Source of the DNA: Geoglobus ahangari
GTDB lineage: Archaea; Halobacteriota; Archaeoglobi; Archaeoglobales; Archaeoglobaceae
Direction of reading: 5' to 3'
NCBI RefSeq assembly: GCF_001006045.1
Contig: NZ_CP011267.1
Span: 992,001-1,056,000 of the forward strand
DNA length: 64,000 nt
Part shown: in pieces, positions 10,837-47,345 of the stretch
Position numbering within the stretch: position 1 is the first letter of the stretch
Layout: the number at the start of each line of letters is the position of its first letter
Translations under genes and position numbers: made by a program
Notes under the pieces: generated by a model
Database searches by the model: none
What the model was told of the DNA's origin: nothing
The model's input: the letters and a program-made list of their open reading frames with translations, nothing else

Positions 10837-12393
10837 ATGAAGCTCAAGCTCAGCCTCGGGCTAAGGAGGAAGAAGGAGGAAGAGCCTCAGGAGCCGCAGG
10901 AAGGTGATGAAGAGGCTGTGGAAACTCGGGATGAGGTTGAAGCTGCCGGGGAAAGTAGGTTTGAGGTTGTGGAGGAGTACTGGATAGAGGAGCCGCACTC
11001 CAAGATTCAAATCGTCTTCGACCCTGAGAGCGGGGAGTATGAGTACCACGTCATCGAGCCGGTGCTGAACGACTACCTCTACTCCGTCTTTTACGTTGTG
11101 AAGCACTCCATCGTCGAGTACTTCCAGCCCGAGGTTGAGGACAGGGTCTCGCACCTCGAGGAGAACGCGAGGAAGCTTGTGAAGGAGATGGGGCTTGATC
11201 TCAGCGAGGAGGAGTTTGACACCGTCTTTTACCATCTGAAGAACGACTTCGTCGAGTACGGCCCCATCACCCCCCTCATGAAGGACCGCCTGATAGAAGA
11301 CATCTCCTGCAACGGCTACAACAAGCCCATCTACATCTTCCACCGCAACTACCAGAACCTGAGAACGAACATCACCTTCAGTGAGGATGAGCTGGACAAC
11401 TTCGTCATCAAGCTCGCCCAGATGTCTGGAAAGCACATAAGCATAGCCGAGCCCATGCTCGACGCAGCACTTCCAGACGGCTCCAGAATCCAGATGACCT
11501 TGGCAAGAGAAGTAACAGACCACGGATCCACCTTCACCATAAGAAAGTTCAGAGATGAACCTGTAACACCAATAGACCTTATCGCCTGGGGAACGTTCAG
11601 CGTCGAGCAGATGGCCTACCTCTGGCTCTGCATAGAGAACAAAAAGTCTCTGATCTTCGCCGGAGGAACTGCGAGCGGAAAAACCACCTCCATGAACGCC
11701 GTCTCCCTCTTCATCCCCAAGAACTCCAAGATAGTCACCATAGAGGACACGAGGGAGGTCATGCTCCCCCACGAGAACTGGATTCCCGCAGTGACGAGAG
11801 AGGGCGGGAAGACCATAGACATGTACGACCTGCTCAGAGCGGCTTTGAGACAGAGGCCCGAGTACATAATAGTCGGTGAGGTCAGAGGTAAGGAAGCACT
11901 GACACTCTTCCAGGCAATGAGCACGGGCCACACCACCTACTCAACTCTCCACGCCGACAGCGTTAATGGAGTCATCCACAGGCTGGAAAACCCACCCATA
12001 AACGTCCCCAGAGCAATGATAGAAGCCTTAGACATAGTCAGCATCCAGGCCCAGGTCTTCCTGGGCAGGAAGAGGGTGAGGAGGAACATGGAGATCGCAG
12101 AGATAATAGGCGTCGACCCCCACACCAAGATCATGAGAACAACAACCGTCTTCGCCTGGGACTCGACCAAGGACGAACACGTGATGGTCGGCAGCTCAAA
12201 GGCCCTCGAGGAGATAAGAACCCTGAGAAGCTGGACGAGAAAGGAGCTCGAACAGGAGCTCAAAACCCGCGAAAAAGTCCTCCAGTACATGCTCGACAAC
12301 AACATCCGCGAGTTCAGAGAGGTAGCGAGAATAATCCAGACCTACCAGATTGATCCCGAGAAGGTGGTGAGGAGCCTTGGTATTCAGGAATGA
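10837..12393 (+). CDS. Type IV pilus / type II secretion assembly ATPase
   Basis: A 518-residue hexameric secretion ATPase of the GspE/TadA/archaellar FlaI superfamily. An acidic N-terminal tail of about 50 residues (RRKKEEEPQEPQEGDEE) precedes the N-domain. The Walker A GGTASGKTT is near residue 277, then an Asp box (IEDTREVML), a Walker B (IIVGEVRGKE) and a His box (STGHTTYSTLHADS). The next gene encodes the membrane platform and starts inside this one's 3' end. No archaellin or accessory fla genes are present, so a pilus or adhesin machine is more likely than an archaellum. Confidence 0.93.
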   Translation: MKLKLSLGLRRKKEEEPQEPQEGDEEAVETRDEVEAAGESRFEVVEEYWIEEPHSKIQIVFDPESGEYEYHVIEPVLNDYLYSVFYVVKHSIVEYFQPEVEDRVSHLEENARKLVKEMGLDLSEEEFDTVFYHLKNDFVEYGPITPLMKDRLIEDISCNGYNKPIYIFHRNYQNLRTNITFSEDELDNFVIKLAQMSGKHISIAEPMLDAALPDGSRIQMTLAREVTDHGSTFTIRKFRDEPVTPIDLIAWGTFSVEQMAYLWLCIENKKSLIFAGGTASGKTTSMNAVSLFIPKNSKIVTIEDTREVMLPHENWIPAVTREGGKTIDMYDLLRAALRQRPEYIIVGEVRGKEALTLFQAMSTGHTTYSTLHADSVNGVIHRLENPPINVPRAMIEALDIVSIQAQVFLGRKRVRRNMEIAEIIGVDPHTKIMRTTTVFAWDSTKDEHVMVGSSKALEEIRTLRSWTRKELEQELKTREKVLQYMLDNNIREFREVARIIQTYQIDPEKVVRSLGIQE

Positions 12394-14281
12394 GAACACC
12401 CTCACGAAGCTCGCCTACAGGTGGTTTGGAGACAGGGCGAGGAGGAATCTCACGAACTACTACGAGCTGGGGCAGAAGCTCCAGCAGGCGATGATCAACA
12501 TACCTCCGGATGTTTACATAGCCACCCAGATGCTTTTCTCAGTCATAATGGCCGTCATCGGCCTGATAATCGGCGCCATCATAGCCCTGATGGTCTACCT
12601 CTTTGCCGAGATTCCGAGATTCGACATATACTTCCCGGAGCCTTTCCTGAGCTTCTGGCTCCAGTACAGGAAGATATTCATAAGCGCCTTCCTCGCGGTT
12701 CTGATCGCGGTGCTGTTCTACATGCTCGGCCAGTTCATGTTCAAGATATATCCGGGGTACATTGTGAGCGACAGGAAGAGCAAGATAGACAAGCTTCTCC
12801 CGAATGCTGTGACGTTCATGTACTCCCTCAGCCTCGGAGGGATGCCCCTCATCCAGATCTTCAAGTCCATAGCGAGCTACGAGGATGTTTACAACGAGCT
12901 TGCGAAGGAGTTCGGCAGGATAATTATGGACATTGAGGAGCTGGGAGAGGATCTGAGGTCTGCGCTGACCAAGGCGATGGAGCTCACACCTTCCAAGAAC
13001 TTGGCCGACCTGATACAGGGGCTCATAACGATCATAGACAGCGGTGGAGACGTGACGGGCTACTTCAGGGACAGGGCAGACTACTACCTCGAGATGGCGA
13101 GGCAGGATCAGAAGAACTTCCTCGAGTTCCTGAGCTTAATGGCTGAAAGCTACATAACTGCATTCGTTGCAGGGCCGCTGTTTCTGATTATAATCCAGAC
13201 GGTCATGGCCGTGATGGGAGAGGGAGACACGAACCTCCTCTACGCGGTCGTCTACATGATAATCCCTGTTGGTGCGTTCTTCTTTGCTGTAGTGATAAAG
13301 CTGATCAGTCCGATTGAGTCCGGAAAGGCCCCGCTCATCGAGGAGAAGGATGTGATCAGGAGGGAGATCGACGAGAACGTCATGAAGAAGTGGAAGTCGT
13401 GGATGACGCGCAGGAAGATGTCCCCGAAGTACCTCCTCATGAACTACCCCTATTCGGTCTTCGCGGTCTCAGTCCCCCTCGCGATCGCCTTCATGATATA
13501 CGGGTTCATGCTCTACCCGTTCACCCCGACCATAAACTGGCTCTTCAACGTTGACGACTACATCTTCATAGCCATAGTGATCGCCCTCCTCCCCTACGCG
13601 ATAGTCTACCAGATCTCCAAGAGGAGAGTCAACATGGTTCTGAAGCTCACTCCGGTGTTCCTCAACAGGCTCGCCTCGATGAACGAGAGCGGCATGACTG
13701 TCTCGAGGGCCATCAGAACCCTCGCGAGAACTGACACAAGCCCGCTCAAGAAGGAGATCGAGCAGATCGAGAAGGATCTTGAGTGGAACGTCAGCCTCGT
13801 CGACGCGCTCATAAGGTTCGCCAACAGGCTCAGGACGTTCGAGCTGACCAGAACGATAGTTCTGCTCGTTGAATCGCTCAGAAGCACGCCCAACGTCACT
13901 GAGGTTCTGAGAATCTCCGCGAAGGACGCGAGCAACGCTGAGCTGCTGCGGAGGGAGAGGATAAAGAACATGTCGATGTACGTGATGATCATCTACATCT
14001 CCTTCTTCGTCTTCATAGGTATCGTCTACATAATCTCCTCCACCTTCCTCTCAGTCCTCGCTGAGAGCACCGCGAAGATGGCAGGGGGTGGGGGGTTCAT
14101 GGGAATGGCGTCGATAGACGAGGAGTTCTACAAGGCGATATTCATGCATGCTGCGGTCTTTCAGGGGCTGTTCGCGGGGCTTGTTGCTGGAGTGATGGGG
14201 GAGGGGGACTTCTCGTCAGGCGTCAAGCACTCCCTGATCATGGTCATCTTCGCCTACGTCCTGTTCACGATGTTCATCTAA
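12377..14281 (+). CDS. Pilus assembly membrane platform (TadC/GspF family)
   Basis: 634 residues with two T2SSF-type domains. Each domain ends in paired membrane helices: about residues 50-75, 92-115, 260-310 in the first half, and 360-400, 530-560 and 590-630 in the second. The soluble parts contain the FMYSLSLGGMPLIQIFKSI and RLASMNESGMTVSRAIRTL helices that contact the ATPase. TTG 12377 is chosen as start because GGTGAGG lies about 8 bases before it; it overlaps the ATPase gene by 17 bases. The two genes form one machine, and the pilin at 17.9 kb is a possible substrate. Confidence 0.88.
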   Translation: MVFRNENTLTKLAYRWFGDRARRNLTNYYELGQKLQQAMINIPPDVYIATQMLFSVIMAVIGLIIGAIIALMVYLFAEIPRFDIYFPEPFLSFWLQYRKIFISAFLAVLIAVLFYMLGQFMFKIYPGYIVSDRKSKIDKLLPNAVTFMYSLSLGGMPLIQIFKSIASYEDVYNELAKEFGRIIMDIEELGEDLRSALTKAMELTPSKNLADLIQGLITIIDSGGDVTGYFRDRADYYLEMARQDQKNFLEFLSLMAESYITAFVAGPLFLIIIQTVMAVMGEGDTNLLYAVVYMIIPVGAFFFAVVIKLISPIESGKAPLIEEKDVIRREIDENVMKKWKSWMTRRKMSPKYLLMNYPYSVFAVSVPLAIAFMIYGFMLYPFTPTINWLFNVDDYIFIAIVIALLPYAIVYQISKRRVNMVLKLTPVFLNRLASMNESGMTVSRAIRTLARTDTSPLKKEIEQIEKDLEWNVSLVDALIRFANRLRTFELTRTIVLLVESLRSTPNVTEVLRISAKDASNAELLRRERIKNMSMYVMIIYISFFVFIGIVYIISSTFLSVLAESTAKMAGGGGFMGMASIDEEFYKAIFMHAAVFQGLFAGLVAGVMGEGDFSSGVKHSLIMVIFAYVLFTMFI

Positions 14282-15072
14282 CTTCCCTCTCTGAGGGAGA
14301 GAAACACCGCACACAAAACGAGCAGAGCTCCGAAGAGCTGCACCCCGCTCAGAACCTCGTGGAACGCGAGAAATCCGACCGTACCGGCGGTGACCGGCTC
14401 TATCAGCGCGATGACCGGCCCCTTCTCAACCCTAACTCTCCCCATCCCGTAGCTCAGGAGGATGAAGGGAATGGCCGTCGGTATCAGGCCGAGGCCGAGG
14501 GTGAGGATAGGATCTCCGAACTCAAACCTGAAGAGGGGTGCGAGCAGAATAACGCCTATGAGAAGGTTCGAGAACGTTATCTGAATGGGGCTGTAAACCT
14601 TCCCGAGCCTGTTGAGCATGATGAACGCTCCCGCATAGACGAGCCCGGAGATGAATCCAGAGATTATTCCAACGTTTAGCTCCTTCTCAGGGCTGAGGAG
14701 CAGGTACAGACCTGTTATCCCCAGAACGAGGGACAGAATGGAGGTTCTCGTGACCCCTCCTTTCACCATCGCGAAGACCATCACGTAGACGGGAGCCATG
14801 TAGAGGAGGAGCGCTGCCGTGGCTGCGCTGAGGTGGGTTATTGCGGTTATGTAGAAGAACACGACTCCCGTGTTCAGCACTCCGAGCAATGCGAGCTCCT
14901 TCCCGAACACCGGCCTCTCTCTCCTGATGAGCATGAACAGGGCGACGAACATTAACCCCACGCTCACCCTGTAGAACGTGGCGGAAAATGGGGAGAGCTG
15001 GAGCGACTTTATGAAGTACGGAAGGGTCCCCATCAGTATCGCTGACAGCAGTACCGCTAATTCTCCCCTCAT
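14278..15072 (-). CDS. EamA/DMT superfamily transporter
   Basis: 264 residues with ten predicted membrane helices arranged as two five-helix EamA repeats. The end of repeat two carries the typical GPVIALIEPVTAGTVGFLAFHE segment. These proteins export or import amino acids, sugars or metabolites; no substrate can be assigned. The 3' end overlaps the pilus platform gene by four bases on the opposite strand. Confidence 0.88.
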   Translation of the reverse strand: MRGELAVLLSAILMGTLPYFIKSLQLSPFSATFYRVSVGLMFVALFMLIRRERPVFGKELALLGVLNTGVVFFYITAITHLSAATAALLLYMAPVYVMVFAMVKGGVTRTSILSLVLGITGLYLLLSPEKELNVGIISGFISGLVYAGAFIMLNRLGKVYSPIQITFSNLLIGVILLAPLFRFEFGDPILTLGLGLIPTAIPFILLSYGMGRVRVEKGPVIALIEPVTAGTVGFLAFHEVLSGVQLFGALLVLCAVFLSLREGS

Positions 15073-15129
15073 TCAGGAGGACTTCACGCAACCCGTATTT
15101 ATTATTTCTGAGCCATAAAATGACAAGGA

Positions 15130-15442
15130 GTGGTGGGCGCGCCTCCGGTCGACCCTTCGGACGGGAGGTTATCTCCCCCGGCCCCATCCTCTCCGCACCC
15201 CCGGAAGCGCCGAACGTCCGGGGTTAGCCTGCTCCCTTCCGGGCCTGGGCCGGTTCCCCCGGCAAACACGGCGGACATCCCCTCCGGGAAGCCCGGCCGT
15301 GACCGCCGGCCCTCCGGGACGGAGATTCTACGAGGCCGGGGGCTTTCGCCTCCCGCCCTCCGGGCCTTCCTTCGGCTTCGGCCCCCGCATGACGACGGTT
15401 TCGGGTCACAGGGGACGCCGAGCCCCCCGGCCTAGCCCACCG
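15130..15442 (-). ncRNA. ffs: Signal recognition particle RNA (7S)
   Basis: A GC-rich block of about 313 bases without coding sense. On the minus strand the 5' GGTGGGC pairs with GCCCACC at the 3' end (helix 1 of archaeal SRP RNA). The Alu domain shows TGTGACCCGAAACC (15410-15397). The S domain shows the helix 8 core GGCCCGGAAGGGAGCAGG (within 15252-15222), the SRP54-binding site, and a helix 6 hairpin at about 15199-15223 for SRP19. A BRE/TATA element lies 25 bases before the 5' end. The boundaries are accurate to a few bases. Translations of this region are spurious. Confidence 0.95.
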
Positions 15443-15461
15443 TATGTTAATCTGTGCAAGT

Positions 15462-15474
15462 GGTATAAAACTTT
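15462..15474 (-). promoter_or_regulatory. SRP RNA promoter
   Basis: Read on the minus strand the sequence is AAAGTTTTATACC, a BRE-like stretch followed by TATA. Its centre is 25 bases before the inferred RNA 5' end at 15442. Confidence 0.75.
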
Positions 15475-15480
15475 AATTGC

Positions 15481-15771
15481 CTACATCTTCTCCCTCACCA
15501 GCTTTGCAAGAACCCTGCCCTCCTCAGTCAGCTCAACTCTGTCTCCAGCATACCTTATGCATGACCCCTTTTCGAGCGTGTCGAGGTGGTACTTCAGGAC
15601 CTTCTCCCCAACGTTCAGTTTTGAGAGGAGCTCGTCAACGCTTTTGCTTCCCTCATCGAGCTCGAGGAGGATCTTCCTTCTTATCGAGTTGGCTATGGCC
15701 ATCTTGAATCTCCTTCTGTACTCCTCGGCCTTTTCGGGTGAGTCTGCCGAGATCCATTCATCGAACTTCAT
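15481..15771 (-). CDS. Winged helix-turn-helix regulator (ArsR-like)
   Basis: 96 residues. After a charged N-terminal helix comes a winged-helix domain: RRKILLELDEGSKSVDELL is helices 1-2, VGEKVLKYHLDTLEKG is the recognition helix, and YAGDRVELTEEGRVLA is the wing. No metal-binding cysteines are present. A TATA-like CATTTAACC near 15799, on the minus strand, lies about 25 bases from the ATG. It faces away from the KaiC-like gene at 15864 across a 92-base gap. Targets are unknown. Confidence 0.85.
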   Translation of the reverse strand: MKFDEWISADSPEKAEEYRRRFKMAIANSIRRKILLELDEGSKSVDELLSKLNVGEKVLKYHLDTLEKGSCIRYAGDRVELTEEGRVLAKLVREKM

Positions 15772-15863
15772 ATGATTGAGTTGGCTGAAACGGGGTTAAA
15801 TGTTTGCCCCTAAGCTTTTCAGGTTGCGATGGTTTTTTATATTCTTGAGGCGTATAATATAAT

Positions 15864-16715
15864 ATGTCACGATACTATGAGCTAAGGGAACTCGAGTCCA
15901 AAGCTCCAAAGCTTTTCGGAATTCCGACCGGCACGAAGCTTGACGAGATGTTCTACAGGGTCGAGAGGGAGGGGGACAAGTACGTGAAAAAACCGCTTGG
16001 AGGAATCCCTCACCTCGCGGTGATGAACATAACCGGAGTCCCTGATACCGGCAAGAGCGTGTTTGCGGAACAGTTCGCCGTCACTCAGGCATCTCACGGG
16101 TATAAGGTTCTGTTTGTGACCGTTGAAAGTCCAGCGAACTTTCTCTACACCGCGTTGAAGCAGAAGGCCGAGGCGATGGGTGCTGACTTCTCGAAGGTTG
16201 AGGAGAATGTGGTCGTGATAGATGCTGCCGAGAGCGACGAGCTCAGGGAGAATGTGAAAGCATTACTCGACACGATGGCTTACGCCATAAAGGAGAAGAA
16301 GTGCACCAACGTAATCATAGACAGCATCACCGGCCTTTACGAGCACAAGGAGGTCATGGCGAGGCAGATCGTCAGGCAGGTGTTCAACTTCCTGAAGAAG
16401 TTCAGGCAGACCGGCATACTGATCTCCCAGAAGAGGTCAGCTCAAGCTTCCGAGTCTGCGGAGGCTGCCGGCGGACTGGCTGTGGCGCACATTGTGGATG
16501 GCACGATAGTTCTGGACAAGAAGCTGATAGAGTCGAGATGGGACGCGAACCTCTACGGACTCCCGCTCGGCGAGGTTCTCAGGACGATAAGAATCGACGG
16601 CTGCAGGATGACGGCCCACGACAGCAGGACGTGGGTGTTTGAGATAACCGATGCTGGCTTGATAGAGATTGTGGCACCTCTGAGTGAGTACATCAAGATG
16701 AGGTCAAGGGGGTGA
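15864..16715 (+). CDS. KaiC-like RecA-superfamily ATPase (AF_0795 type)
   Basis: 283 residues with one RecA/KaiC domain. The Walker A GVPDTGKS is at residues 58-65 and a Walker B strand, NVIIDSITGL, is near 155. A C-terminal beta region follows (VWVFEITDAGLIEIV). It resembles the thermophile KaiC-domain family typified by AF_0795. The next gene encodes the partner protein commonly found beside this family, 6 bases downstream. The role is probably ATP-dependent signalling or control of surface machinery; this is inferred from the family and from pilus genes on both sides. Confidence 0.83.
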   Translation: MSRYYELRELESKAPKLFGIPTGTKLDEMFYRVEREGDKYVKKPLGGIPHLAVMNITGVPDTGKSVFAEQFAVTQASHGYKVLFVTVESPANFLYTALKQKAEAMGADFSKVEENVVVIDAAESDELRENVKALLDTMAYAIKEKKCTNVIIDSITGLYEHKEVMARQIVRQVFNFLKKFRQTGILISQKRSAQASESAEAAGGLAVAHIVDGTIVLDKKLIESRWDANLYGLPLGEVLRTIRIDGCRMTAHDSRTWVFEITDAGLIEIVAPLSEYIKMRSRG

Positions 16716-16721
16716 TGGAGG

Positions 16722-17336
16722 ATGGAGGTTATCGCGAAGCCGAAGGGTGGAGATGTGGATAGGATGGCGGAGAAGGTGTTCATGAAGAGCATCGAGCTCC
16801 TCGGCGGGTTGAGGAGGCTCGTCGAGTACAGGAATCTAACGTGGCTTCCGTCGCTTGCTGAAGCAGCATACGTTGTGGTTCTGAAGAACGAGGCTCTCAA
16901 GACTTACTCCGAGATCGCGAGAGAGCTTGGCATAACTGAGAACACAGTGAAGAGCATAGCCACCGCAGACGAGGAGAAGGTTCTCGAGTACATAAGGGGC
17001 GAGCTGGAGGACAGACCGAAGGAGCACATTGCCGGCGGGATAGCCAAGCTCGCGTACAGGAAGCTCAAGGAGAGCGGAGCCCTCGACGAGGAAGAGGTTG
17101 AGATGGATCAGGACGTCATCGAGACTCTGGAGATCGCATGGGCAGTGCTTGTGCTCTCAAGGCTGAGGGGCATGCACTTCCCGGCCGGAAAGGATGAGCT
17201 GATGGAGAGGCTGAAGGGCATAGTGGTGAAGGAGAAGGGCAGGGAGTACAGGATCGAGGAGCTGCTGGAAAGGATAGAGTATCCGGTTAAAAGTCCGGCG
17301 GAGTTGCTTAGTGCGATAAAGCGGGCTGCGGCGTAA
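16722..17336 (+). CDS. KaiC-neighbour regulatory protein with HTH
   Basis: 204 residues, helical. A helix-turn-helix is visible at about 63-85 (TYSEIARELGITENTVKSIA), of the sigma-70-region-4-like/NarL type. A C-terminal domain (KDELMERLKGIVVKEKG and following) comes after it. It matches the archaeal regulatory domain described as occurring near KaiC-domain genes. It starts 6 bases after the KaiC-like gene, so the two are co-transcribed. It probably binds DNA and is controlled by the ATPase, which is inference. Confidence 0.78.
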   Translation: MEVIAKPKGGDVDRMAEKVFMKSIELLGGLRRLVEYRNLTWLPSLAEAAYVVVLKNEALKTYSEIARELGITENTVKSIATADEEKVLEYIRGELEDRPKEHIAGGIAKLAYRKLKESGALDEEEVEMDQDVIETLEIAWAVLVLSRLRGMHFPAGKDELMERLKGIVVKEKGREYRIEELLERIEYPVKSPAELLSAIKRAAA

Positions 17337-17458
17337 CGGGTTTAGCAGCCTGCCTTGTCTTATTTTTCCATCGTATTTCATAATTTTTAAAGTTTCAAAA
17401 CGCAAGCAGAAATGAATAACTAAAAATTCAGAAAATATTTAAAAATGGATATTTTGGT

Positions 17459-17956
17459 TTAGTTCACAGTCACTTGCGCGTCGAGTATGAAGTTGTTGCT
17501 CAGGGTGTGGAGAACTTTGACTCTGTATGTTCCTGGGTCAAAGTCACCAGTACCGTCTTCTTTGAAGACAATTATCTCTCCTGGAGCGAATACGACGTCA
17601 ACTGCAGTAGAATTCGTTAAAACTCCCTGTGAGTCTGTGAACCCACTGCTCGAATACGTGAGTTCGCTGACCAAGTTATCTGAAGTGTCATAGACAAATA
17701 TCTTGATCTCATCGAGTCTGATTTCCTCTCCTCCGTTGTGCACGATCTTAAACACGGTCTGGTTCTGATCTGTGGTGTCGAGTGTGTCTGAAGCGTCGCT
17801 AAGTGTCAGCTGTGCCTGTGGAGCACTCTTTGGCGCCTTGCTTCCGAGCCCGAAGACGAAGCTCGCAATCACTGCCGCCAGTATAACGGTTATGGCCACC
17901 ATCAGGATCACGCCTATCACAGGCGATACACCTTTCTCGTCTCTAAACCACCTCAT
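17459..17956 (-). CDS. Type IV pilin-like protein
   Basis: 165 residues. The N-terminus MRWFRDEKGVSPVIGVILMV is an archaeal class III (prepilin) signal; cleavage is expected after Gly9, leaving a hydrophobic helix of about 25 residues as assembly core. The rest is a Thr/Asp-rich beta domain. ATG 17956 is chosen because GAGGTGAT lies five bases upstream; an ATG six bases and a GTG nine bases upstream are alternatives. TATA (AACTTAAATAC) is near 18002. It is probably the subunit moved by the ATPase/platform pair at 10.8-14.3 kb. Confidence 0.88.
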   Translation of the reverse strand: MRWFRDEKGVSPVIGVILMVAITVILAAVIASFVFGLGSKAPKSAPQAQLTLSDASDTLDTTDQNQTVFKIVHNGGEEIRLDEIKIFVYDTSDNLVSELTYSSSGFTDSQGVLTNSTAVDVVFAPGEIIVFKEDGTGDFDPGTYRVKVLHTLSNNFILDAQVTVN

Positions 17957-18092
17957 TCTCATCACCTCTTCTGCAAGTCATTATTACAACTAACATGTAT
18001 TTAAGTTTTTCCCATTATTATGATTATCGTGTGACTCATGATGGGGTGTCAAAAAAGGTAAAATTATAAACTTTCATGAGAACCCTGTCCCA

Positions 18093-42439: not shown

Positions 42440-43156
42440 ATGGGTGGCGAATCGCTGGTGCTGGCGTTTCCCTCTGGCAAGGGGGGTGTTGGTAAAACCA
42501 CCGTGGCCGTCAATCTGGCTGCAGCACTTGCTCTCAGAGAACTGCGGGTTGTGCTCATTGACACGAACTTTGCTCTGCCGAATCTCCACCTGTTTCTCGA
42601 CGTGGTTCCGGAGAGAACCCTGACTCACTACATGTCCGGAGATGCGGGCATCGATGATATTGTGGGAGAGGTCTGGGTGAGAGATGCGGCCTTCGACGTA
42701 ATTCCATCGGAGTCGCTAGTGGATCTCAAGGCGAAAATCGACCTGAACCTGCTTAGCGACGTGATTAACCGTCTTAAAGGCAGTTATGACATCTTGCTGC
42801 TTGACATGCCTCCGGGACTGTCGAAATATGTGGTCCTGCCGCTCAAGGCATCTGATGCTGTCGTTATTGTGACCTCGGATTTCAAGGCATCACACTCTGA
42901 CGCCCTCAGGGTCCTGAAACTCGTGCAGGGTGTTGGAAAACCCCATCTGGGCTTCATCGTCAACATGTGCAGATCCGGGGGGTCGAGGTACTTCGAAACA
43001 ACTGATGTTTTCAGCACTGTGCCGTACGATCCGTTTATCAGAAGGGCCTACACCTCCGGCAGGACGATTTTTCACACTCCAGTGCCGGGATGGCTGGCCA
43101 GGTCGAAGAGGTCTTTCGAGGGCATGGCTGAGAAGATCGCACAGCTAATGGTGTAA
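42440..43156 (+). CDS. MinD/ParA-like ATPase
   Basis: 238 residues. Deviant Walker A SGKGGVGKTTVAVN at about 12-24, switch I LIDTNFALPN, and Walker B LLLDMPPG. The C-terminus is helical and basic, compatible with membrane targeting. MinD/ParA proteins place macromolecular assemblies by ATP-dependent dimerisation on membrane or DNA. It is followed by a convergent tRNA gene and then by a KaiC-like quartet; whether they act together is unknown. Confidence 0.9.
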   Translation: MGGESLVLAFPSGKGGVGKTTVAVNLAAALALRELRVVLIDTNFALPNLHLFLDVVPERTLTHYMSGDAGIDDIVGEVWVRDAAFDVIPSESLVDLKAKIDLNLLSDVINRLKGSYDILLLDMPPGLSKYVVLPLKASDAVVIVTSDFKASHSDALRVLKLVQGVGKPHLGFIVNMCRSGGSRYFETTDVFSTVPYDPFIRRAYTSGRTIFHTPVPGWLARSKRSFEGMAEKIAQLMV

Positions 43157-43166
43157 AAATTTCAGA

Positions 43167-43240
43167 TGGGGCCGCCGAGACTTGAACTCGGGTCTCCACC
43201 CCCCCAAGATGGAAGGATAACCAGGCTACCCCACGGCCCC
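43167..43240 (-). tRNA. tRNA-Pro (GGG)
   Basis: On the minus strand: acceptor GGGGCCG/CGGCCCC, anticodon stem CCATC/GGTGG with loop TTGGGGG giving GGG, and T arm with GTTCAAGTC. No intron. Discriminator A at 43167, CCA not encoded. A TATA-like ATATTTAAACC near 43270-43280 serves it. Confidence 0.93.
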
Positions 43241-43381
43241 GTGTTCTGGCACCCATTTGTTTGAACTGGGTTTAAATATTCTCCGATTGGAGAGCGCATT
43301 GATTCTGATGACTTCAATTAAACACCTGAAAATAATATTTTCTGGATAATTCTTAAATATGGGTTGATCGAAAGACAGAAC

Positions 43382-44101
43382 ATGTGTCCGGCTCTTGCGA
43401 AGTTTGGCATTGACAAGCTTGACGATATGCTCGGTGGCGGCCTCGATAGGGACACTGTCAATCTCGTGGTTGGCAGGAATGGTGTTGGCAAGACGATTCT
43501 CGCCTCTCAGTGGGCTGCTGAGGGTGTGAGGGAAGGGGAGAATGTGGCATACATTCTCACGACCATGTCCGAAAACAGCTGCAAGAGTTATCTCGGCAAC
43601 TTCAGTTTCATGAAGGACTGTTACGACAAGATTGACTGGATCTTTCTCGATATTGACGTTCGAGATCTGCTCCCTCTGACAAAGGAGAACTTCAACCGCG
43701 TCTTCTCCTCACTCTTCAGGGGAAAGCTCGATGACGTTGACAGGCTCGTCTTCGATTCGGTGACGAGCGTGGAGAAGGCTTTTGCCGATCCCGTGCTTTA
43801 CAGGAGAGCGCTGAAGTTCTTCTCTGACCTCTGCTACGACAGCGATGTGACTGCCCTCATCGTTGAGGAGGCACCCCTTTACGGCGAGTTCGGAGAGGCA
43901 AAGGCTCTCTCGGAGTGCGTCATACACCTCGACATACTCAGAGTCCCGAACGGGTATGCGAGGGCCATGAGGCTGATAAAGAAGTATAGAACTGGCCATC
44001 CCCTTGACTGGATCCCCTACGAGATAACTGACGACGGGATAGTGCTGAAGGAGGGCAGGTATGTCAGGGTCAGCTATGAGTTCCACTACGAGTCTGGGTA
44101 A
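43382..44101 (+). CDS. KaiC-like RecA-superfamily ATPase, member 1
   Basis: 239 residues. It opens with GIDKLDDMLGGGLDRD, the usual KaiC/RadA lead-in. The Walker A GRNGVGKT is at residues 31-38, and RLVFDSVTSVEK is the Walker B strand. ATG 43382 follows a TTAAATAT box (about 43351-43358), so the transcript is probably leaderless. It is the first of four overlapping paralogues, with the next gene starting 26 bases before its stop. Two paralogues retain a P-loop and two do not. The function is unknown. Confidence 0.85.
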   Translation: MCPALAKFGIDKLDDMLGGGLDRDTVNLVVGRNGVGKTILASQWAAEGVREGENVAYILTTMSENSCKSYLGNFSFMKDCYDKIDWIFLDIDVRDLLPLTKENFNRVFSSLFRGKLDDVDRLVFDSVTSVEKAFADPVLYRRALKFFSDLCYDSDVTALIVEEAPLYGEFGEAKALSECVIHLDILRVPNGYARAMRLIKKYRTGHPLDWIPYEITDDGIVLKEGRYVRVSYEFHYESG

Positions 44102-44636
44102 GCGCGTCTTTGAGGAGATAAGCAGGGGGAATGAGGTAATCCTAATAAAGACTCCCGTCAGGTCGTATTTTAACGTTGTTTATGACGTGCTCAGGTTCCT
44201 GACCTCGGTTTCCGAGGGGATCTACGTCTCCCTCAGCAAGCCGTGTTTCTCCATCAAGAAGCAGCTCGAGAGGGAGGGTGTCAACGTAAACAGGTTGATA
44301 TTCGTCGACTGTGCAACAAAGCCGTTTACGGGGACTGTGCCGAGTGAAGGAGCGTGCGTCTTCATCGAATCGCCCAACCCGGTGCAGATCGCCGTTTACG
44401 TGGAGAAGGCAATGAACATGGTGAACTCAGATCTCAGGTTCGTTTACATGGACTCCCTCTCGACAATATCCCTCTACAAGTCCCCTGAGACCCTGATCAA
44501 GTTCATGAGGCAGCTCACAGGCAGGATCCGGCTCAAGGGGTTCAAGGCCATCATCGTTGTGGTTGAGAACGAGATCGAGCCACCCTACCTTGCTCAGCTC
44601 TCCCTCATGTGCGACTCCGTCATCGAGGTGGAGTGA
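44076..44636 (+). CDS. KaiC-like paralogue, member 2, no P-loop
   Basis: 186 residues. The strand-helix pattern of the RecA fold is present (YVSLSKPCFSIKKQLE, RLIFVDCATKP, then RFVYMDSLSTISLY in the Walker B position). In place of Walker A the sequence reads VILIKTPVRSYFNV, which has no GxxxxGKT. It probably cannot hydrolyse ATP and may be a structural or regulatory partner of the active paralogues. It overlaps both neighbours. Confidence 0.75.
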   Translation: MSSTTSLGKRVFEEISRGNEVILIKTPVRSYFNVVYDVLRFLTSVSEGIYVSLSKPCFSIKKQLEREGVNVNRLIFVDCATKPFTGTVPSEGACVFIESPNPVQIAVYVEKAMNMVNSDLRFVYMDSLSTISLYKSPETLIKFMRQLTGRIRLKGFKAIIVVVENEIEPPYLAQLSLMCDSVIEVE

Positions 44637-45382
44637 TGAGGTTCCTCACCGGAATAGAGGTGGTTGACAGGCATGGAGGAGTGTATCCCGGTCTTGTTTA
44701 CGTGCTCGAGGCTCCGGGTGCTGGCGGGAGGGAATTTGCCTACAGCATGCTCCACAGGAATCGTGAGAGGGAGAGGCTCGTCATATCCATTACCGCCACG
44801 GAGGAGGATGTGAGGAGAGAAGTGCAGCTGATGTACCCGGAAATTGGGCAGAGCGTGCTTGAAGGTGTGAGAATCGTGAGTCTGGCTGAGCTGTACTTTC
44901 AGGACAGCATAATCCCCATGAAGTGGGTCTCCGGGAAAGCTTCAGCAGAGTCCCTGAGAAGGAGGGACGACATTCTCTCCGGGCTGATAAAGACCTTCGA
45001 CTCTCTGGAAGACGGGAGTGTCGTGGTTCTCGACTCAGTCACGGACCTCGTAAGGCTGTCTGGGAGAAGGCTTGAGTGGGAGGACATCGTTGACCTCCTG
45101 AACGGCCTGAGGAAGCTCGGTCTGAGAAAGGACTGCGTCATCCTCGCTCTCCTGACTTCCAGCGTCCTCGATCCGGGAAGGGAAAACGAGCTTCTGAGCT
45201 CCTCTGACGGCATAGCTGTCTTTGAGTGGGTTGAGGAGAAGGGAAGCCTGAGCAGGTGGATGCACTTCCGGAAGCTCCTCGGAATAATGCCGATGCTGGA
45301 GAGGGAAAAGGTCTCGAGGCTGCAGATCAGGACCGACCCGAGGGTGGGCTTTGCGGTCACCACATACGAGAGGGTGATATGA
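44636..45382 (+). CDS. KaiC-like paralogue, member 3, degenerate P-loop
   Basis: 248 residues. It begins RFLTGIEVVDRHGGVYPG and YVLEAPGAGGREFAYSM, where the P-loop lysine and serine/threonine have been lost (APGAGGREF). The later strand VVVLDSVTDLVRL sits in the Walker B place, and the C-terminus has FAVTTYERV. It starts on the last base of the preceding stop codon, so translation is coupled. Like member 2 it is probably an ATPase-dead partner. Confidence 0.78.
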   Translation: MRFLTGIEVVDRHGGVYPGLVYVLEAPGAGGREFAYSMLHRNRERERLVISITATEEDVRREVQLMYPEIGQSVLEGVRIVSLAELYFQDSIIPMKWVSGKASAESLRRRDDILSGLIKTFDSLEDGSVVVLDSVTDLVRLSGRRLEWEDIVDLLNGLRKLGLRKDCVILALLTSSVLDPGRENELLSSSDGIAVFEWVEEKGSLSRWMHFRKLLGIMPMLEREKVSRLQIRTDPRVGFAVTTYERVI

Positions 45383-46068
45383 TGCACCTCCTCTCCACGG
45401 GAATAAGGGGACTGGACGTGATGCTGGGCGGCGGGATACCGAGGGGACACATGGTTGCGGTCGTTGGCCAGTACGGGACTGGGAAGACAACGCTTGGCCT
45501 CCACTTCATCTACGAGGGGCTGAAGAACGGGGAGAGGGGTGTGATAATCAGCTTCGACGAGGACGAGGAGAGTGTGATTCAGACGGCGGAGAGCTTCGGC
45601 ATGCACTTCTCCGATTTTCAAGACCAGATCGTGGTCATGAGACTCGAGGCTGAGGACGTTAAGAGGAGCCTCGAGAGGGTTGAGAGCGAGGTCAAGATGC
45701 TTGTGGACGACATAATGCCATCAAGGATGCTCATCGACTCGATATCCGTCCTCGAGACGCTTTATGATGATGCCGGAAGGTACAGGATGCTCGCAAGGGT
45801 CAGGAGCCTCGTGAAGTCCTCGGGGGTCACGGCCATCCTGACGAGCGAGTGCGACAGGACAAACCCATTCAGCTCGAAATACGGAATAATCGAGTACGTC
45901 TCAGACGGGCTGATCTCCCTGAGGATCATCAGGGAGAGCGAGCTTGAGGAGGCCATACTCGCCATAGAGGTTGTGAAAATGAGACGGATGAACCACTCGA
46001 GGAGACCGAGGCCATACTCAATAACGAGTTCGGGCATCGAGGTTTTTGAAGAAGCCGAAATAATGTAG
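45379..46068 (+). CDS. KaiC-like RecA-superfamily ATPase, member 4
   Basis: 229 residues. STGIRGLDVMLGGGIPRG leads into Walker A GQYGTGKTTLG (about 30-40). A second conserved region is VIISFDEDEESVIQ, and MLIDSISVLETL is the Walker B strand. It is the most typical KaiC/GvpD-like member of the four. The ATG at 45379 overlaps the preceding stop; GGGTGAT lies upstream. A second ATG at 45382 is an alternative. Confidence 0.87.
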   Translation: MMHLLSTGIRGLDVMLGGGIPRGHMVAVVGQYGTGKTTLGLHFIYEGLKNGERGVIISFDEDEESVIQTAESFGMHFSDFQDQIVVMRLEAEDVKRSLERVESEVKMLVDDIMPSRMLIDSISVLETLYDDAGRYRMLARVRSLVKSSGVTAILTSECDRTNPFSSKYGIIEYVSDGLISLRIIRESELEEAILAIEVVKMRRMNHSRRPRPYSITSSGIEVFEEAEIM

Positions 46069-46168: not shown

Positions 46169-46759
46169 ATGAAGAGGAGAATGGTTATTCTGCTGTCCCT
46201 TCTTGTTCTGGGGGCACTTATTCTTGGATGTGCTCAGGAGGAGAAAGCGAAGGCAACACCAACTCCGGTAAAGGAAGAGACCAAGGAGGAGAAGACCCCC
46301 ACACCGACCCCTGAGAAGACCTCAACGCCAAAACCGACACCGGAAAAGACCCCGACACCCACACCAACCGCAACGCCAAGCAAAACTGAGGCCTCAAAGT
46401 CACCGGTAGTCGAGTGCACCGTCTGCCACACGAAAGCCGCTGAGTACAAGCCGCACATCAACGGCGGTCAGTACTGCGCCAACTGCCACGGCAGCAACCC
46501 GCACACGATCCACGTCGGGCCGGGAACGATCAACCTCGACTGCAGCATCTGCCACGGGCCTCCGGACAACATCCAGATACCCAAGCCGATAGAGGAGGGC
46601 AGGAGCGTCTGTGAGAACTGCCACGCTTATCCAGATGCTACAAAGCCGAGCTACGGCAACCTCGTCAACATCCACCTGCCGAGAGGCAAGTACTGTACGG
46701 TCTGCCACGGAACCGACATACCCGGCCTCCACAAGGCTGCCGACTCGTTTGTAGAGTAA
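46169..46759 (+). CDS. Pentaheme c-type cytochrome lipoprotein A
   Basis: 196 residues. N-terminal signal with lipobox VLGALILGC (Cys21), then about 55 residues of Thr-Pro-rich linker, then a domain with five CxxCH heme motifs: CTVCH, CANCH, CSICH, CENCH and CTVCH. Many of the other histidines (HINGG, HTIHVG, NIHLPRG, LHK) can be axial ligands. It is exported and lipid-anchored, and probably carries electrons at the cell surface. TATA-like TTAATATATTC is near 46140, about 25 bases upstream. It precedes a second pentaheme gene by 7 bases. Confidence 0.9.
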   Translation: MKRRMVILLSLLVLGALILGCAQEEKAKATPTPVKEETKEEKTPTPTPEKTSTPKPTPEKTPTPTPTATPSKTEASKSPVVECTVCHTKAAEYKPHINGGQYCANCHGSNPHTIHVGPGTINLDCSICHGPPDNIQIPKPIEEGRSVCENCHAYPDATKPSYGNLVNIHLPRGKYCTVCHGTDIPGLHKAADSFVE

Positions 46760-46766
46760 GGAGATT

Positions 46767-47345
46767 ATGAAACCCAAAACCCTATTATTTTTTGTGATTT
46801 CGCTGATAGCAGTCACCTCGATGTGCGCACAGCCTTCTGAAAAGCCGCCTGAGAAAACCCCCACACCCCTTCCAACTCCAGTCACAACGCCAACGCCCAC
46901 ACCCACTCCCACAGCAACTCCAGCACAGGAGCAGGGCTCGGCATCTGAGGTTACGTCGGAGGCTGGCCCTGTCTGCGAGAACTGTCACCTCAACTCCAAG
47001 AGGCAGTACGTGCCTCAGGCCGACAAAATTCCCGGACATATTGATGGTGTGAAGTACTGCCAGTACTGCCACGCTCAGGGCAATGACGTGGTTAATGAGA
47101 TCGCAGACCTCCACCACTCAAAGTACTCAGACTGCCAGAGGTGCCACAAGGACTACGATCTGGAGAAGATGGACTGCGGATCGTGCCACGGCTACCCAGA
47201 CCCGTTCTCACCCAGCGGCGGAAACCTGCTGAAGATACACATGGACAGGGGCGTAGGCTGTCAGGACTGCCACGGATACGACTTCCTGAGAATCCATCAG
47301 GATAAGGTGATCTTTCCCGACAGGTTCAGGGTACCTGTCGGGTGA
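46767..47345 (+). CDS. Pentaheme c-type cytochrome lipoprotein B
   Basis: 192 residues. Signal peptide with a lipobox-like AVTSMC (Cys19), then a Pro/Thr-rich linker of about 35 residues, then five heme motifs: CENCH, CQYCH, CQRCH, CGSCH and CQDCH. Similar in layout to the previous gene but with different sequence, so an old duplication with divergence. GGAG ahead of the ATG and the 7-base gap suggest one transcript. Confidence 0.9.
   Translation: MKPKTLLFFVISLIAVTSMCAQPSEKPPEKTPTPLPTPVTTPTPTPTPTATPAQEQGSASEVTSEAGPVCENCHLNSKRQYVPQADKIPGHIDGVKYCQYCHAQGNDVVNEIADLHHSKYSDCQRCHKDYDLEKMDCGSCHGYPDPFSPSGGNLLKIHMDRGVGCQDCHGYDFLRIHQDKVIFPDRFRVPVG

Follow-up and report, generated by a model that had tools for sequence, protein, structure and literature searches.

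What would four overlapping genes for KaiC/RecA-like proteins, two of them without a P-loop, be doing in a single translational unit? The question is raised by a 64,000-nucleotide stretch of the Geoglobus ahangari chromosome (NZ_CP011267.1, positions 992,001 to 1,056,000; hereafter the window), part of a 1.77 Mb Archaeoglobaceae chromosome, in which the four genes, here called K1 to K4, lie on the forward strand (Table 1). We find that the core of the system is K3-K4, a KaiC ATPase and a catalytically dead partner that are inherited together, and that K1-K2 is an Archaeoglobales add-on. By analogy with the archaellum protein ArlH, we propose with a probability of about one half that the active/inactive pair K3-K4 is an ArlH-like regulator that would gate a type IV pilus motor, with K1-K2 feeding a signal into it.

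The layout described in an earlier note on this DNA was confirmed in position, strand and overlaps: K1 and K2 share 26 bases, K2 and K3 a single base (TGATG), and K3 and K4 four bases (ATGA). An alternative start of K2 is possible at an upstream ATG at 44061. Similar packing was seen in relatives, where K1 and K2 overlap in 11 of 12 loci, and spacings of at most 20 bases separate K2 from K3 in 16 of 19 loci and K3 from K4 in 45 of 58. As read from the sequence, the TATA-like box before K1 would probably mark the start of a leaderless mRNA covering all four genes. The KaiC/RecA kinship of the four products also holds, since K1 and K4 (191.3 bits) pass the PF06745 cutoff of 26.6 bits, K3 is placed by its orthologues and its fold, and K2 by its fold.

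Reading the motifs in the window proteins, we likewise found the P-loop kept in K1 and K4 and gone from K2 and K3. However, the further description of the set as two active and two dead members has to be revised, because K1 lacks the catalytic glutamate pair, and an intact ATPase site (Walker A lysine, catalytic glutamate and Walker B aspartate) is complete in K4 only. The Walker A motif of K4 is GQYGTGKT, and among 59 K4 sequences the Walker A lysine, the Walker B aspartate and the K-M-R finger are intact in all 59, while the D/E and E positions are each kept in 58. K4 passes TIGR03880 (KaiC_arch_3) with 288.7 bits (cutoff 249.45), below which K1 falls (80.2 bits); the two are clear paralogues (profile comparison 99.6%). 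In K1 both Walker A (GRNGVGKT) and Walker B are intact, with the P-loop lysine and threonine kept, and the catalytic glutamate pair is replaced in 12 of 12 sequences by threonine followed by methionine, leucine, isoleucine or phenylalanine (Thr-Met in the window protein). The ArlH encoded by the same genome is likewise without glutamate at this position (Thr-Gln-Phe), and ArlH reportedly binds ATP without hydrolysing it (PMC8978795); since the pair is replaced as in ArlH, we predict by analogy that K1 would bind ATP but not hydrolyse it. To judge from these residues, K4 looks to be the only catalytic member, K1 a probable binder of ATP, and K2 and K3 members that bind none.

The dead partner K3 reads PGAGGREF at the P-loop position in the window protein. 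Among 70 K3 sequences, the P-loop lysine is lost in 69 and the first catalytic glutamate in all 70, whereas the Walker B aspartate is kept in 68. A finger lysine is kept in 57, that is, in 57 of 58 non-haloarchaeal copies (the exception has arginine) and in none of the 12 haloarchaeal ones, which are the copies not adjacent to K4; the labels haloarchaea and methanogen-type families were assigned from G+C content, gene content and a Haloferax control match. Profile searches gave no family match for the window K3, but its orthologues pass PF06745 with 53.2 and 37.8 bits, and its model (predicted local distance difference test score, pLDDT, 91.4) has a RecA/KaiC fold, with FlaH (4yds and 4wia, from Sulfolobus and Methanocaldococcus) as the top solved matches. 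The sequences of K3 and K4 are far apart, and K3 is therefore not a recent duplicate of K4. The sole K3 of the 70 with a P-loop lysine (L125, 5068-5904; GDIGSGKNEF) is possibly an intermediate or a reversion.

K3 and K4 are inherited together to a striking degree. We searched 393 genomes for K3 (E < 1e-40) and for K4 (TIGR03880, E <= 1e-50), of which 182 had the two together, 205 had neither of them, four had only K3 and two only K4 (Fisher p = 3e-105, a figure that ignores the relatedness of the genomes). As the two were also lost jointly in several Archaeoglobaceae genera, the association is more than shared ancestry. Moreover, in 33 loci outside Archaeoglobi and haloarchaea, which were chosen for K3 and blind to the neighbours, K4 adjoins K3 in the same orientation in all 33. 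A shared function of K3 and K4 is thus well supported. K1, on the other hand, was found in 22 of the 393 genomes, every time inside the K locus, and is confined to Archaeoglobales.

The earlier note had suggested that the four proteins make up a hetero-oligomer, and had proposed that a comparison of gene order across Archaeoglobales would bear on this. Many Archaeoglobales genera have the full order K1-K2-K3-K4, as does a second family (G036, L054); other Geoglobus and a Ferroglobus-type genus have K2-K3-K4 only, and two Archaeoglobales genera K3-K4 only. Because the flanking genes vary between genera, the K unit is self-contained. What stands of the proposal is that, in K3-K4, the constant part of the unit, an active and an inactive paralogue share a function; an obligate four-subunit complex is not supported, given that several genera lack K1, and others K1 and K2, but keep K3-K4, and that K3 and K4 are both present but unlinked in haloarchaea.

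K2 has nothing at the P-loop position and stops before the C-terminal strands that bear the finger residues in K4. Its family matches, to DUF7504, DUF835 and FlaH, are weak: it scores 18.1 bits with PF06745, under the cutoff, and with DUF7504 (PF24336, cutoff 27) the window protein scores 22.4 and its orthologue in L039 32.9 bits. The K2 model (pLDDT 88.0) matches structures of KaiC, PH0284 and FlaH, and the profile comparison with K3 and K4 is weak. Fold and family matches suggest that K2 is kin to the DUF7504/DUF835 group of inactivated KaiC domains. Its copies in the K locus form a tight group from 30 genomes, with distant relatives elsewhere in the wider inactive-KaiC group. Among these relatives, the genes of three K2-like proteins (L167, L169 and L171) stand at the end of stressosome-like operons with products that look, from their first residues, like RsbS (STAS) and RsbT-type kinases, and some other K2-like genes adjoin receiver-domain-looking genes, also read from first residues. 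In Woesearchaeota and Aenigmatarchaeota (L159 2-1261, L160 2200-3733, L161 4924-6525), a K2-like gene and the gene of an active KaiC are divergently oriented, and in L161 to L165 K2-like genes are followed by those of small membrane proteins.

A possible target of K3-K4 emerges from its neighbours. In 28 of the 33 loci outside Archaeoglobi and haloarchaea, K3-K4 is divergent from a gene for a T2SSE pilus ATPase followed by one for T2SSF TadC, mostly within 300 bases, and of the five loci without this pair at least two end at a contig edge. The arrangement recalls the archaellum, whose motor ATPase ArlI is regulated by ArlH, an ATP-binding protein of KaiC type (PMC8978795). We infer that K4 and its dedicated, catalytically dead partner K3 would form a hetero-oligomer, either as a mixed KaiC-type ring or as stacked rings; K4 alone would hydrolyse ATP there, and K3, without an ATP site, would set or sense the state of the ring. 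The finger lysine that K3 keeps in loci beside K4 may reach into the ATP site of the neighbouring subunit. Such a ring would gate the type IV pilus motor, that of the assembly ATPase and TadC, as ArlH does with ArlI, and in Archaeoglobales K1 and K2, added to the same translational unit, would together probably feed a signal into K3-K4. A stricter version is possible but doubtful: K3-K4 would be an obligate hetero-hexameric ring of alternating live and dead subunits, with the K3 finger lysine completing the K4 site, and would dock on a type IV pilus ATPase as an additional, pilus-specific 'ArlH'; in Archaeoglobales the ring or stack would have expanded to four components, of which one hydrolyses ATP, one only binds it and two do neither.

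Known KaiC-type assemblies, for example those of cyanobacterial KaiC and ArlH, are homo-oligomers. K3 is a KaiC pseudo-ATPase whose gains and losses follow those of one particular KaiC ATPase throughout a phylum, which makes the two a concrete candidate for a ring of mixed composition. The pairing with pilus motor genes offers a testable function, bearing on how archaeal type IV pili other than the archaellum are switched, and the inferred haloarchaeal orthologues would make K3-K4 testable in Haloferax volcanii.

Several observations weigh against this proposal. K3 stands alone in the 12 haloarchaeal loci, with K4 elsewhere in the genome, and this unlinking, together with the lost K3 finger lysine, weakens the case for an active site shared in all lineages. 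None of 25 Archaeoglobales loci has a pilus gene within the flanks fetched around the K genes, and a pilus motor as the target there would be carried over from orthology alone. Pilus ATPases were found in 54 of 60 genomes, including those without K3-K4, and K3-K4 is therefore dispensable for pili as such. Finally, the K-linked pilus ATPases do not form one clean clade in our tree, in which the Archaeoglobi copies, among them two of the host genome (one of which is in the window), fall beside and not inside the K-linked group.

Among the alternatives, it seems rather unlikely that K3-K4, with or without K1-K2, controls transcription or mRNA levels of pilus or archaellum genes and leaves the motor untouched, in the way of CirA with CsmR in Haloferax or of GvpD for gas vesicles. 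In H. volcanii the KaiC homologue CirA does affect transcription of the archaellum (PMC13286277), an autoregulated bidirectional promoter would suit genes that diverge from the pilus motor operon, and a MarR/BlaI-type winged-helix gene directly follows K4 in some Archaeoglobi loci (L036, L051 and L052). However, this winged-helix neighbour occurs in two genera only, no transcription factor gene accompanies the K unit consistently from locus to locus, and the closest folds to K3 are those of ArlH, a motor component.

A more general role, in which K3-K4 would be a signalling hub, either a KaiC-type timer or an energy sensor with several outputs including pili, is quite unlikely, as the pilus motor pair is the sole neighbour conserved across many families, and no KaiA or KaiB genes were recognised beside the loci, for which annotation is partial. 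What speaks for it is that KaiC-like ATPases have been proposed as archaeal signal transduction hubs (as cited in PMC5847659), that K2-like proteins occur in signalling operons, and that the K4 gene of an inferred haloarchaeon is divergent from an ATP-NAD kinase gene (L181, 118-2187), the setting reported for cirB of H. volcanii, where deletion of CirB leads to arrhythmic cir expression (PMC3941300). By analogy this neighbour suggests, and leaves unproven, that K4 belongs to the CirB family. H. volcanii also scores above the TIGR03880 cutoff, and the published H. volcanii cir primers for quantitative PCR had no clean match in three haloarchaeal genomes, which are probably not H. volcanii.

That the four proteins act independently, in an operon that arose by tandem duplication and in which K2 and K3 are decaying, is highly improbable. 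KaiC paralogues are common here (nine ArlH-profile matches in the host genome), and K1 and K4 are paralogues as noted above; nevertheless, the K3 and K4 sequences are far apart, many families have kept K3 with the same residues lost and the same retained, and it is lost along with K4, while decay would not leave copies in some 180 genomes. The idea of a MinD-linked cell positioning complex, a guess in the earlier note, is scarcely credible. A ParA/MinD-type ATPase gene does lie 225 bases upstream of K1, but of 25 Archaeoglobales loci just two, the window and L033, have it next to the K unit, and a tRNA-Pro gene on the opposite strand separates it from K1; on these two grounds the linkage was rejected. 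The gene is also preceded by a TATA-like box of its own (about 26-27 bases before its ATG), as is K1, and its product, with ParA/CbiA superfamily matches only, scores 113.1 bits with the archaeal MinD model TIGR01969 (cutoff 201.75).

The earlier note could name no system that the unit resembles, but published relatives do exist. ArlH/FlaH is, like the K proteins, a single KaiC/RecA domain; it is the best match of the K3 model, shares with K1 the missing catalytic glutamate pair, and works with a motor ATPase and platform protein homologous to those that adjoin K3-K4 in other families. Identity with ArlH was ruled out, since with the ArlH model NF052589 (cutoff 215) K4 scores 42.8 and K1 32.5 bits and K2 and K3 give no match, and since the genome has a separate, true ArlH (265.7 bits; G000:1708941-1709618). 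Furthermore, unlike ArlH, which binds ATP, K3 has no P-loop, two to four paralogues stand together instead of one, and the K locus lies outside the archaellum operon, with no motor gene in the fetched Archaeoglobi flanks. Cyanobacterial KaiC belongs to the same ATPase superfamily, and K4 keeps its Walker A motif, catalytic pair and K-x-R finger; but K4 has one domain and scores 92.8 bits with TIGR02655 (cutoff 546.25), which rule out a circadian KaiC, and no KaiA or KaiB genes were recognised nearby.

Further precedents are the pilus-associated KaiC-like ATPases (arCOG01171-01175), whose genes stand beside operons for VirB11-type ATPases and TadC; those of arCOG01172/01173 do so in Methanomicrobia (Makarova et al. 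2016, PMC4858521), and very likely overlap with K3-K4. The accessible text of that paper mentions neither a strictly co-inherited dead partner, nor the divergent layout, nor the four-gene version of Archaeoglobales. Of the four proteins, TIGR03880 takes in K4 alone; this model is a hypothetical equivalog to which no function is assigned. DUF835, DUF7504 and MEDS are signalling domains of the inactivated KaiC (iKaiC) type, described in 2018 (PMC5847659); K2 resembles them in its weak DUF7504/DUF835 matches and missing P-loop, but is a stand-alone, unfused protein translationally coupled to other KaiC paralogues. In the searchable literature, the scope of which leaves out the likeliest source, a 2017 paper on KaiC hubs, we found no account of how strictly K3 and K4 are inherited together, of their divergence from the pilus genes or of the residue pattern, nor any description of the four-gene form of Archaeoglobales.

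Table 1. Features of the K unit, its surroundings and the type IV pilus locus, in window coordinates
Feature	Position	Strand	Remarks
PilB3-type ATPase	10837-12393		pilus locus
TadC	12377-14281		pilus locus
Another KaiC-family ATPase	15864-16715		pilus locus
Helix-turn-helix-like protein	16722-17336		pilus locus
Archaeal type IV pilin	17459-17965	-	pilus locus
tRNA-Pro (GGG)	43167-43240	-	between MinD-like gene and K1
TATA-like box TTAAATA	43353-43359	+	about 26 bases before K1 ATG; from sequence reading
K1, KaiC-domain protein	43382-44101	+	239 residues; PF06745 88.3 bits
K2, truncated inactive KaiC-like domain	44076-44636	+	186 residues; no P-loop; sub-threshold Pfam matches, predicted fold
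K3, inactive KaiC paralogue	44636-45382	+	248 residues; alignment, residue counts, model, co-occurrence with K4
K4, single-domain KaiC ATPase, TIGR03880 (KaiC_arch_3)	45379-46068	+	229 residues; profile score, residue counts
Two pentahaem c-type cytochrome lipoproteins	46169-47345		own TATA-like box

A few minor observations concern the surroundings. In the two Archaeoglobaceae genera with the winged-helix gene after K4, this BlaI/MarR-type gene is accompanied by one for an M48-type (BlaR1-like) membrane peptidase (L036 8266-9293, L051 1613-2610, L052 4197-5194), and in a distant family a similar-looking pair and a K2-like gene are convergently oriented (L164 6196-7268, L165 6364-7412). In the window, a type IV pilus locus (10837-17965) lies about 25 kb from K1-K4. 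Downstream of K4 are the two cytochrome genes, with five CXXCH motifs in each product; the pair, which appears in no other genus examined, follows K4 in all six Geoglobus loci.

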